The notes beneath the pieces were generated by a model. It worked only from the letters and a program-made list of their open reading frames with translations. It was not told where the DNA came from and did not search any database. Positions 55,766 to 59,854 of a DNA stretch of 64,000 bases are shown here, piece after piece. Position 1 is the first letter of the stretch. Each line of letters begins with the position of its first letter. Source of the stretch: Candidatus Rokuibacteriota bacterium (GTDB lineage Bacteria; Methylomirabilota; Methylomirabilia; Rokubacteriales; CSP1-6); NCBI GenBank assembly GCA_016866775.1, contig VGLJ01000010.1, positions 1-64,000 of the forward strand. Reading direction: 5' to 3'. The position numbers and the translations under genes were made by a program.

Positions 55766-56818
55766 ATGGCCAGCCTGGACCTGCGAGCCGCGCAGCACGA
55801 CGTCCCGGACACGATCGACGCGGTGGAGGAATGCTACCGGCGCGGGTGGACGGACGGCCTGCCCGTGGTGCCGCCCACGGCGGCGAAGGTGAGCGCGATG
55901 CTGGAGGCGGCCGGGCTCGCGCCCAACCACGTGCTGGGCGAGGTGCCCGTGCGCCGGCGCGCGATCACCGCCGAGCGGCTGGCGGCGAACGCGGTGATGG
56001 CGGGCTGCCTGCCCGAGCACTTCCCCGTCGTGCGCGCCGCCCTCGACGCGTTCCTCGAGCACGATCCGAACATCCTGCACGAGGTGTCGGCGGCGACGAA
56101 CGCGCCGGGCTGGCTGATCGTCGTGAACGGGCCGGTGCGGCGCGCCATCGGCCTCGGCTGCACCGACAACCTGCTCTCGTCCGCGAACCGCGCGAACGCC
56201 ACCATCGCCCGCGCGATCCGGCTCGTCCTCATGAACGTGCTGGAGTCGCGCCCCGGAATCCTCGACCGCGGCTGCATGGGCTCGCTCGTGAAGGCCGGCG
56301 TCTGCTTCGGCGAGGACGAGGAGCGCAGCGCGTGGCCGCCGCTCCACGTGCGGCGCGGGTTCGAGGCGGCGGCGTCGACGGTGACCGTGGCCAGCGTCCA
56401 GGACCCGGAGATGCTAGGCAACCGCTACGGGCAGACCGCCGAGAGCCTGATGGACGCGGTGGCGGACGCGATGGCCACGCACGGCCTTGCCGTGCACTTC
56501 ACCTTCACCGCCACCGAGTGGTTCTGGATCGTCGGGCACTGGCACGCCGAGATGCTGGCGCGCCAGGGCTGGACGGTGCCGCGCATGCAGCAGTACGTCG
56601 CGGAGCGGGCCTGGCGCACGCGCGCCGATCTGAAGCGGCTCGGCGCCCAGCGCGGCGCCGTCGAGCCGGGCGACGAGACGGCCCGCGTGCTCGCGGCGCC
56701 GCGGCCCGACGACATCTCCATCGTGAAGGCCGGCGGGGACAGCGGGATCTACAGCACGCTCTTCAAGGTCTACATCGGGATGCCGACCACCACCGTCGAG
56801 ATCCGGAGGCGCACATGA
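55766..56818 (+). CDS. UGSC-operon partner protein
   Basis: This 350-residue protein begins with an N-terminal helix and VEECYRRGWTDGLPVVPPTA. It has ITAERLAANAVMAGCLPEHF, GWLIVVNGPVRRAIGLGCTD and several cysteines (CTDN, RGCMGSLVKAGVCFG). Two conserved-looking blocks around GRGCMG and FTFTATEWFWIVGHW suggest an enzyme or metal-binding fold. Its stop overlaps the start of the selenoprotein gene (ATGA), and related genes are, from memory, regular neighbours of UGSC proteins. No function is established. It may be transcribed as a leaderless message. Confidence 0.75.
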   Translation: MASLDLRAAQHDVPDTIDAVEECYRRGWTDGLPVVPPTAAKVSAMLEAAGLAPNHVLGEVPVRRRAITAERLAANAVMAGCLPEHFPVVRAALDAFLEHDPNILHEVSAATNAPGWLIVVNGPVRRAIGLGCTDNLLSSANRANATIARAIRLVLMNVLESRPGILDRGCMGSLVKAGVCFGEDEERSAWPPLHVRRGFEAAASTVTVASVQDPEMLGNRYGQTAESLMDAVADAMATHGLAVHFTFTATEWFWIVGHWHAEMLARQGWTVPRMQQYVAERAWRTRADLKRLGAQRGAVEPGDETARVLAAPRPDDISIVKAGGDSGIYSTLFKVYIGMPTTTVEIRRRT

Positions 56819-57357
56819 CGACACCGACGATCCGCTTGATCGATCCCACGGGAGGCGCGATGGCGCGCGAGGCCTTCGCGCTCGCGCCGCGCCCCGCCGA
56901 CTTGCGCGGGGCGCGTCTCGGGCTCCTCGACAACTCGAAGTCGGGGTCCGAGCCGATCCTGCGCGCCATCGCGGCGCTGCTGAAGGACGAGTTCCAGTGG
57001 GCCGACGTCTACTACGCGAAGAAGCACTCCGCGTCGCTGCCGCCGAAGCCCGAGATCCTGGAATCGCTCCACCGGCACGCCGACGTGGTGGTGACCGGCG
57101 TCGGCGACTGAGGGGGCTGCTCGTCGGGCAGTTTGCTCGACGGTGTGACGCTGGAGCGGCAGGGGATCCCGACCGCGACGATCATCACGAGCGTCTTCGT
57201 GCACACGGCGGAGGCCTACACGCGCCTGCTCGGCGTGCCGGACTTCCCGTACCTCGTGTGCCCGCACCCGATCACGAGCGTGGGGCCGCGGGAGCTCGAG
57301 GAGCGCGCGCGCCTGCTCGCGCCCGGGGTGCGTCGGCTCCTGCTGCGGGAGGCGTAG
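56815..57357 (+). CDS. UGSC-family selenoprotein with in-frame UGA (Sec99)
   Basis: The ATG at 56815 opens a frame that reaches a TGA at 57109-57111 after VVVTGVGD. In the same frame it continues as GGCSSGSLLDGVTLERQGIP, then ATIITSVFVHTAEAYTRLLG, to a TAG at 57355-57357. Translating the TGA as selenocysteine gives one intact 180-residue protein with Sec-Gly-Gly-Cys at the site where UGSC-family proteins carry U/C-G-x-C. Protein-like sequence, matching family features and the same frame on both sides make a random stop unlikely. A stem-loop follows the UGA. Sec machinery (SelA, SelB, SelC, SelD) is not in the window. The role of the family is unknown; a redox or selenium-centred function is likely. 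Confidence 0.85.
57115..57133 (+). promoter_or_regulatory. candidate bacterial SECIS stem-loop
   Basis: Three bases after the UGA, GGCTGC (57115-57120) pairs with GCAGTT (57128-57133) through two G-U and four Watson-Crick pairs around the loop TCGTCGG. Position and size fit a SelB-binding SECIS element, which in bacteria sits just downstream of the UGA. Confidence 0.55.
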
Positions 57358-57442
57358 GCGCGAGTGGTGGATTGCGTTCCCGCCGCGCCCCGGCGCCGCG
57401 CGCGCTGATCGCGATGCTCGCGCCGTGGTCGCGGCGCCGGGC

Positions 57443-57690
57443 CTAGAGCCCGAACGCGTCGGCGGCCAGCCGGCGCAGCTCCTCGTGCAGCTCCGCGCGC
57501 AGCGACGATAGCCGATGCCGACCAGCCACGGCCACGCGCCCTCGCTGTAGTACTCCATGAAGAACGAGCGCCGCCACGTTGCCGGCCTGCCGTCGAGCAG
57601 CGGCACGAACGAGCGGCCCTGGATGTGCGGCCCCGGTTGTCCGCCGCCCAGCTCGATCAGCGTCGGCGCGATGTCGAGCGCGATCACCAT
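57443..57690 (-). pseudogene. sulfatase C-terminal remnant
   Basis: The minus strand encodes MVIALDIAPTLIELGGGQPG, then HIQGRSFVPLLDG and FFMEYYSEGAWPWLVG, which matches the C-terminal part of alkaline-phosphatase-superfamily sulfatases (ALDIAPTLLELAG, GRSLVPLL). One frame later it ends SLRAELHEELRRLAADAFGL with a stop at 57443, skipping an intermediate piece. The catalytic formylglycine region is absent. A dead remnant. Confidence 0.6.
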
Positions 57691-57726
57691 CTGGTCGATC
57701 GTCGACCCGGCGCGGCTGCGGCGAGT

Positions 57727-58060
57727 TCAGCCCCCCTCGCGATCTCTGGTTGCGCGCGATCGGCGACGTCGGCGGAGATCGTGAGGCTCTCCAGAATCGC
57801 GTGAATCGCCTGCGGCTCCTCGATGAGGCCCAGCAAGCGCAGGCGGCCTCCGCAGCGCGGCCCGGCGCATGAGCTTCGCCCACTCGTAATAGCGCGGAGG
57901 CGGGGCCAACGCGGCGTGGGTGGCCACAGCCTCAGGCGCACGCTCCTCCGACTCCGATCCCGCCGTGATCCGAGTGTCGTACGCGGCAACGCGGCCGCGC
58001 CAGCGCGCGTGCGGGGCCAGCACGCCGCGATAGAGGATCAGATTGATGCGCGGGCGCGCG
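57727..58060 (-). pseudogene. IS91-type transposase remnant
   Basis: The minus strand reads INLILYRGVLAPHARWRGRV, then PPPRYYEWAKLMRR. After a frame change it gives GPRCGGRLRLLGLIEEPQAI and HAILESL, which is the C-terminal third of IS91/IS801-type transposases. A few bases are lost between MRR and the CxxC-like motif, and the expected first cysteine is gone. The catalytic HUH and tyrosine motifs are absent. It borders the ATPase fragment at 58117, so the element probably caused or used that break. Confidence 0.65.
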
Positions 58061-58116
58061 CCGATCACGAAGATCCGCGAGGAGACCCCGAGACGCCCGC
58101 GAATGGCCGTCGTCTG

Positions 58117-59233
58117 GGTGAGAGGGCGCTTCTCCTGGTCGTGACCGCGCGCGTCGAGGAGATCGACGAGGCGCCCGCAGTTCGCGCCGCACTCGACGAG
58201 CTGGAACGGGATCGCGCCGTGGTGAGAGTGCCGTTGCCGCCCCTCTCTCGGACGGAGACGCACGAGCTGGCGCGATCGCTCGCGCGGACGGAAAGCGACG
58301 ACATGGTGCTGGCCCGGCTCGCGGATCATGCCTGGGCGGTCAGCCAGGGCAACCCTTTCGTGATCGTGGAGACCGTGCTCGCTTCCGCGGAAGGGACCAC
58401 GGCCTCGTCCGGGGCGTTCGGTGTTCCCGACCGCGTGCGGGAAATCGTGGCCCGTCGTCTCTCGCGTCTCTCGGAGCGCGGCGGTGAGCTGGCCGACGTG
58501 GCCTCCGTCATCGGACGGGCGTTCGAGTTCGCGCTGCTGCATCGTGCCAGCGGTCTCGACGAAGGCGACGCCGCGAGGGCTGTCGAGGAGCTCGTGCGCC
58601 GGGGGATCCTCCACGGCGTCGGCGAGCACTTCGACTTCACGCACGACCGCATCCGCGACGTCGCGTACGGGGCCCTCCTCCTTCCGCGTCGTCAGCTCCT
58701 CCACCGTCGCGTCGCCGACGCGATCGAGGATCTCTACCGCGCGCAGCTCGAGCCCTACCTGCTGGCGCTGGGCCTGCACTACCGCGGAGCGGGCGTCTGG
58801 TCGAAGACCGCCGACTACCTCACGCGCGCGGGCCGCGAAGCACAAACCGTTCGGTCCGCGCGCGGCGGCGCGCGCGCGCGCGATCAGCTTCGCGTACGGC
58901 CACGCGCTCGTCGTCGAGATGCTCGGCGAGGCACGTCTGCTCGCGGGCGATGTCGAAGAGGCCGGGCGGCGCGGTGACGAGGCGATCGCGCTCGCGCTGG
59001 CGGTACCTGACGTCGCGCACGCGCGCTTCGAGGAGGCGATCTCGCTGGCCGGCGCGCGTGGCATGCGACCGCTCATCGCGCACGGCCGGCTGGGCCTCGG
59101 TCACGCGCGGGCGCTCGACCACGATCGCTCCGGCGCCCGCACGGAGATCACGGCGGCGCTCGCCGACTACCGCGCGATGGCGATGCCGTACTGGATCGCG
59201 CGGGCCGCGGACGCGCTCGCGACGCTCGGATGA
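58117..59233 (+). pseudogene. AAA/TPR-type ATPase (adenylate-cyclase-associated) fragment
   Basis: The frame starts mid-domain with ALLLVVTARVEEIDEAPAVR and runs through AWAVSQGNPFVIVETVLASA, a winged region VPDRVREIVARRLSRLSERG, and HFDFTHDRIRDVAYGALLLP. That is the second half of the STAND/AAA ATPase found in adenylate cyclases and regulators with TPR tails. Near 58850 the frame shifts. The remaining tail (AISFAYGHALVVEMLGEARL, then LLAGDVEEAGRRGDEA) belongs to the last TPR units, so a middle part is missing. The 5' half, with Walker A, was removed at the border with the IS91 remnant. Confidence 0.65.
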
Positions 59234-59260
59234 TCGTGTCTCTCGGAGCCCTCCCGACCC

Positions 59261-59287
59261 GGCGTTGCCGAAGACGAAGTCGTGGAA
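59261..59287. repeat. 27-bp copy of an amidohydrolase fragment
   Basis: These 27 bases are identical to 59969-59995, which encode FHDFVFGNA on the minus strand in the amidohydrolase at 59855. Here the surrounding sequence is unrelated, so this is a stray fragment. Confidence 0.75.
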
Positions 59288-59292
59288 ATCGG

Positions 59293-59366
59293 CCTACGGC
59301 GCCTTCACCCAGCGCTGGCTGACGCTCAACTTCGCCCACCGCCAGGCCGGCGGCGGCGAGTACCCG
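59293..59366 (+). repeat. copy of the 2OG-dioxygenase 3' end
   Basis: The sequence matches 49118-49194 closely (three substitutions and one missing codon over the main part). It encodes AYGAFTQRWLTLNFAHRQAG, the end of the dioxygenase at 48199. It begins a few bases after the 27-bp amidohydrolase fragment. Confidence 0.75.
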
Positions 59367-59388
59367 CCGGCACCGTCGCTTCCGATCG

Positions 59389-59739
59389 TCACGGTTTGCG
59401 TCGTCGGATTCGCATAGCGATCGCGACCAACGCACCGTCGGTTGGTGTATAGGTCTGCGCTCCCGTTGTCGTGAAGGCCTGAATCGCGATCGGGCCTGCC
59501 ATGGGATCGGGAACCTTGCTGAGCGTGACCTGAAGATGCGGCTCGTGCGACGTCGCGTTGCTTTCCTTGCCGTCGAACGCGACGTTGGTCCCGCCCGCGT
59601 TCGCGACCAGCGCGATGCCGTGGACGGCAGTGACGCCGTCCAGCCAGTCCCTCACGAGCTGCGTAACGGGTCCGGTAAGACCGAGCCGGTAGCGCTCGAG
59701 TGCCAACGGCGGCAGCTCGTCGGCGCGCGTGCCCGTCAC
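59389..59739 (-). pseudogene. DNRLRE-domain protein, C-terminal piece
   Basis: This 116-residue open frame carries ERYRLGLTGPVTQLVRDWLD, then GIALVANAGGTNVAFDGKES and SHEPHLQVTLSK, the end of a DNRLRE domain. That domain is common in secreted and surface proteins, often followed by collagen-like or tail segments. The N-terminal two thirds and any signal peptide are missing; the ATG at 59739 is merely the first in the surviving frame. Confidence 0.6.
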
Positions 59740-59854
59740 GAAGCGCGCGAGCTCGGCCGCGATGCTTCATCGGTTCATCCCAACACGCTCGTGGCCGGGC
59801 GTGACCCGGCCATGAGCGCGAGAACCCCTGCGGGCGAGGCGCCCGCAGTCCAAA

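Follow-up and report, generated by a model that had tools for sequence, protein, structure and literature searches.

A UGSC-family gene with an in-frame UGA, almost certainly read as selenocysteine, and its recurrent partner gene in a Rokuibacteriota genome

Results

An interrupted UGSC gene overlaps a partner gene

The window analysed here is a stretch of 64,000 nucleotides from the Candidatus Rokuibacteriota contig VGLJ01000010.1, and the two genes, the TGA and the hairpin described in it lie on its forward strand. A UGSC-family selenoprotein gene of 180 codons occupies positions 56815–57357. Direct reading of its frame, from an ATG at 56815 to a TAG at 57355–57357, bore out the original prediction that a TGA at 57109–57111 interrupts an otherwise open frame; this TGA is the sole interruption. 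Translated as selenocysteine (Sec), it becomes residue 99 in the context GVGD-U-GGCSSGS, with Cys102 at +3. The same prediction held that both flanks of the TGA encode one protein of the UGSC family, and two profile libraries agree: the readthrough protein matched the Pfam UGSC profile (PF24696) over residues 8–176 with 181.1 bits (cut-off 25), and the NCBIfam profile NF041046 with 128.3 bits, just over the cut-off of 125.

Immediately upstream lies a partner gene of 350 codons (55766–56818), belonging to a family for which Pfam and NCBIfam have no model and our searches of the PDB gave no match. Its TGA stop codon (56816–56818) overlaps the UGSC start codon in an ATGA (56815–56818), as originally described, and a Shine-Dalgarno-like GGAGG (56805–56809) lies 5 bases 5' of the UGSC start. 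This arrangement is typical of translational coupling, suggesting that the two genes are translationally coupled. Downstream of the UGSC gene, the region 57440–59800 appears by eye to be gene debris, consisting of short overlapping frames with sulfatase-like and ATPase-type-regulator-like fragments.

The in-frame TGA is conserved, and the genome encodes selenocysteine machinery

The window has 1,314 TGA triplets when all six frames are counted, and we screened every one. Just two, including that at 57109, combined split coding-like sequence with a downstream hairpin fitting a bacterial SECIS model, and the predicted hairpin energies were -13.6 kcal/mol at 57109 and -7.5 kcal/mol at the other site. 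Since the TGA at 57109 is by far the stronger of only two such cases, the combination is not attributable to chance.

All four genes whose presence the original prediction had proposed to check were found in the same genome. selA and selB adjoin one another, with a tRNA-Sec gene (selC; anticodon TCA) beside them, and selD (L057; contig C31:24695–25639) has an in-frame TGA of its own, from which we conclude that SelD is itself probably a selenoprotein. The main ground on which the prediction could have failed, a genome lacking selenocysteine machinery, is thus contradicted.

UGSC genes number eight in this genome and are spread over seven contigs; each is interrupted by a single in-frame TGA, in every case at the motif. 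The proposed placement of the stop within a U/C-G-x-C motif is right for the window copy, which reads Sec-Gly-Gly-Cys, but does not extend to the whole set: the other seven copies comprise six with U-G-S-C and one with U-S-T-C. Gene callers that give TGA no reading other than stop would cut all eight short.

UGSC genes were found in 45 of 60 related genomes, with up to 12 copies per genome, and among the matches listed in these genomes every UGSC copy has one TGA. We also aligned 12 Cys-type homologues from named genome records outside the 60-genome group, all of which have Cys (TGC) at the position of the UGA; the search pattern required Cys, so these homologues say nothing about Sec forms elsewhere. 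Conservation of the TGA in all listed matches of the relatives, together with Cys in the same column, rules out a sequencing error at 57109. General reassignment of TGA was likewise considered and rejected, since the site is conserved across genomes and TGA serves as the stop codon of the partner gene.

Under the standard code, the TGA at 57109 would be an ordinary stop, yielding a truncated protein of 98 residues or marking a pseudogene, and the use of TGA to end the adjoining partner gene indicates that in this genome TGA can indeed terminate translation. Against this reading, the TGA is kept at the same site in the eight paralogues and in all of the listed matches from relatives, with coding sequence beyond it. 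Moreover, in an orthologue with 69% identity the half of the protein 3' of the TGA is conserved, with synonymous changes there and a hairpin that is nearly unchanged. Given also the Sec machinery in the genome and the selection on the hairpin described below, we give an ordinary stop next to no credence.

The hairpin downstream of the UGA is under selection

A stem-loop was originally placed three bases after the TGA. The hairpin exists, but it begins 10 bases after the TGA, at 57122. Its arms (57122–57130 and 57134–57142) form nine pairs including an A-U pair (10 bp by the model scan), and enclose a 3-nt loop, GTT, at 57131–57133 that starts with G; if the A-U pair is left open, the loop is AGTTT. 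An Rfam scan of the window gave no SECIS match, and we therefore tested the hairpin (57122–57142) against the published constraints for bacterial SECIS elements (PMC13188914). It lies within the published model, with 19 nt between the TGA and the loop, and the segment 57119–57145 had a z-score of -3.93 relative to shuffled sequences. A fold that starts at the TGA itself was considered as an alternative and rejected, since it is the minimum-free-energy structure of a single 42-mer and homologues do not share such a fold.

The strict model fits every Sec copy examined except one, a copy fused to a partner homologue (L010). The gene L070 from Burkholderiales encodes the same peptide with TGC in place of TGA, and has no model hairpin. 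Nonetheless, fit to the model is not specific on its own: the model accepts 15% of the window's TGAs, and a weak hairpin of this type is still seen in some Cys forms from actinobacteria.

Two further comparisons address selection on the hairpin. An alignment of 11 distinct sequences had 98% of hairpin cells able to pair, with two pairs changed on both sides. The covariation score was 0.204, as compared with a mean of 0.060 for shuffled alignments, none of 500 shuffles reached this value, and controls in which the structure was slid along the alignment scored 0.028 or less; the count of doubly changed pairs taken alone was not significant (117 of 500 shuffles). Codon usage was compared in the 30 best-scoring copies from other genomes, one per genome, which share ancestry. 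Among these, eight of nine codons within the hairpin were invariant to the third base, as against nine of the 77 conserved codons elsewhere (Fisher P 3.7e-6), the invariant codons being those at +3 to +10, including AGT for Ser. Judged from the codon freezing and the covariation, the hairpin is under selection. Taking the Sec machinery and the SECIS evidence together, we infer that the UGA at 57109 is almost certainly read as selenocysteine.

UGSC genes occur with a recurrent partner

A homologue of the partner adjoins or is fused to all eight UGSC paralogues, with varying gene order. More widely, 47 of the 50 UGSC loci examined, Sec and Cys types alike, had a recognisable partner; two of the three exceptions lie at contig edges, and at the third (L048) a partner is ~2.4 kb away, outside the locus examined. 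Presence or absence of UGSC and of the partner was identical in 60 of 60 genomes, and their copy numbers were correlated with a Spearman coefficient of 0.97, figures that are inflated by the shared ancestry of these genomes. The fused copy, L010 (L088:9200–10852, contig C1), joins UGSC to a partner homologue with 31% identity to the window partner. It carries the U-S-T-C motif, has no SECIS element by the strict model, and lies directly 3' of an HpaB-type monooxygenase gene. These associations make it very likely that UGSC and its partner form one functional unit. That Sec is inserted at 57109 and that the two proteins act as a unit is, as a joint claim, likely.

The 60 genomes contain 289 partner genes and 233 UGSC genes. 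We inspected ten of the surplus partner loci (L113–L122), and all ten lacked a UGSC motif nearby. The existence of partner genes without UGSC indicates that the partner family has other roles too. The proteins of L113–L122 appear to be a stand-alone lineage with the motif GVTDGLPVVPPT, and most are encoded near an mreB-like gene (identified by eye).

Genes surrounding the UGSC loci are mixed. Our survey of 81 neighbouring proteins revealed no common pathway and pointed to no particular substrate, and included a TRAP transporter (L087), HpaB-type and luciferase-like oxygenases (L088), thiolases, a CoA transferase and amidohydrolases. This composition suggests catabolism of organic compounds, with substrates that would differ between loci. 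In at least two genomes (L082:9921–11300 and L091:4020–5405), a gene for a tetratricopeptide-repeat protein comes after the partner-UGSC pair.

UGSC is predicted to adopt an alpha/beta fold

AlphaFold modelled UGSC, with a pLDDT of 90.8, as a series of five beta-alpha units in which Sec follows strand 3, so that the protein is predicted to be a five-stranded alpha/beta protein and not thioredoxin-like. Foldseek searches of the PDB found no relative of UGSC at a TM-score of 0.5; the matches were weak and of generic alpha/beta type, led by lumazine synthase, and PDB sequence searches found no credible relative. For the partner model, Foldseek returned no match in the PDB at an E-value of 0.001.

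A thioredoxin-like fold was suggested for the UGSC family in 2008 (PMC2398784), and the UxxC motif would suit a thiol:disulfide oxidoreductase that serves as a general redox protein and not as the catalytic subunit of a specific enzyme. We consider this improbable: the confident model places Sec after the third of five beta-alpha repeats, the structural matches listed include no thioredoxin, and near-constant pairing with one large protein family would be unusual for a general redox carrier. Alternatively, Sec99 could be a ligand for a metal or metalloid, acting in transport or detoxification and not as a catalytic nucleophile, in keeping with the prediction that about 20% of known selenoprotein families bind ligands, mostly metals (PMC13188914). 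This appears more improbable still, given that the 25 Pfam families found most often among the neighbours include none for metal resistance and that no Cys other than Cys102 is conserved alongside Sec.

The Sec motif resembles that of GrdB

We compared the UGSC family with the GrdB family using hhalign. The two Sec positions were aligned within a match of 47 columns with a probability of 88%, which falls short of the 95% customarily required before homology is called with confidence, and a P of 3e-6, which applies to one pairwise comparison. The score of 47.8 was far above reversed controls and above the best of 250 column shuffles against the same GrdB alignment (26), after setting aside two shuffles that scored above 130; these were taken as numerical artefacts, the one printed being a 12-column end match. 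A Pfam scan of 12 UGSC members reported no GRDB match up to an E-value of 1, and the GRDB profile ends before the Sec; no GrdB structure emerged when PDB sequences were searched with one GrdB. With the profile stopping just short of the Sec, an internal stop in GrdB loci goes unreported by scans, and we read these loci by frame extension. All 17 GrdB-family (PF07355) loci read in this way, from the same genome and relatives of its class (L093–L099, L101–L105, L107–L109, L111 and L112), reach a TGA at the Sec position.

These data suggest that the Sec module of UGSC may be akin to that of GrdB. It is also quite conceivable, with a little less than an even chance, that UGSC and its partner form a two-subunit enzyme whose likeness to GrdB at the Sec motif arose by convergence and whose chemistry is unlike that of glycine or proline reductase. 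The alignment consists mainly of the U-G-x-C helix and an E-x-x-G-[IV]-P strand, a common alpha/beta junction, and convergence would also be consistent with the lack of GRDB matches in Pfam scans of UGSC members and with the absence of a recognised pyruvoyl-type partner, the partner found here having no Pfam match. It is harder to reconcile with Sec standing at one and the same strand-helix junction in both families, and with scores far above those of the reversed and shuffled controls.

Discussion

Our favoured reading is that UGSC and its partner constitute a two-subunit selenoenzyme. SelB bound to the hairpin at 57122–57142 would deliver Sec-tRNA to the UGA at 57109, giving the full-length selenoprotein, which would act as the catalytic selenol subunit. 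In the model, Sec99 heads the helix that follows strand 3, and Cys102, three residues on, would be a likely resolving thiol. The partner (55766–56818) would be the large subunit, probably responsible for substrate binding. By analogy with GrdB/PrdB, the Sec would attack a substrate held by the partner and then form a selenenyl-sulfide with Cys102, to be reset by a cellular reductant. In this way a small organic substrate, differing from one paralogue to the next, would be reduced or reductively cleaved. We propose GrdB-like chemistry for UGSC only tentatively, based on this analogy. Similarly speculative is the broader proposal that UGSC and its partner represent an unrecognised, expanded family of two-subunit selenoenzymes, with a Sec module distantly related to that of glycine and proline reductases, a large subunit whose fold is not yet solved, and, within this lineage, multiple paralogues in each genome, diversified for different substrates.

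The UGSC family itself is already known, having been reported in 2007–2008 (PMC2398784; review, PMC13188914), and in the GOS survey of ocean and fresh water it ranked among the most abundant selenoproteins. The review also cites a Methylomirabilota genome rich in selenoproteins. What may be new is the recurrent association with the partner, along with the predicted alpha/beta fold and the alignment of the Sec module with that of the GrdB family. This near-constant partner, which could be co-expressed, the Cys forms in cultivated actinobacteria and the possible link to the reductase class offer handles on the chemistry of the uncharacterised UGSC proteins.

The known UGSC (seleno)proteins (NF041046/PF24696; Olavius symbiont, GOS) are bacterial, give the same near-full-length profile match and have Sec in a UxxC motif. 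The window copy differs from them in its UGGC motif, in belonging to a genome with eight copies, and in having a partner documented as a recurrent neighbour. PMC2398784 describes a UGSC/Unknown_1 fusion, in which UGSC is joined to an uncharacterised domain; L010 is likewise fused, whereas UGSC and its partner in the window are separate, overlapping genes, and the partner family may correspond to Unknown_1. Thioredoxin-like selenoproteins have the UxxC motif in common with UGSC, but the predicted five-stranded alpha/beta fold of UGSC differs from theirs. In GrdB and PrdB (PF07355), as in UGSC, a helix opens with Sec-G-x-C, and the motif E-x-x-G-[IVL]-P-T follows. By contrast with them, UGSC is only 180 residues long, lacks the second Cys of UxxCxxC and any Pfam-level match, and has no recognised GrdE/PrdA-like gene beside it.
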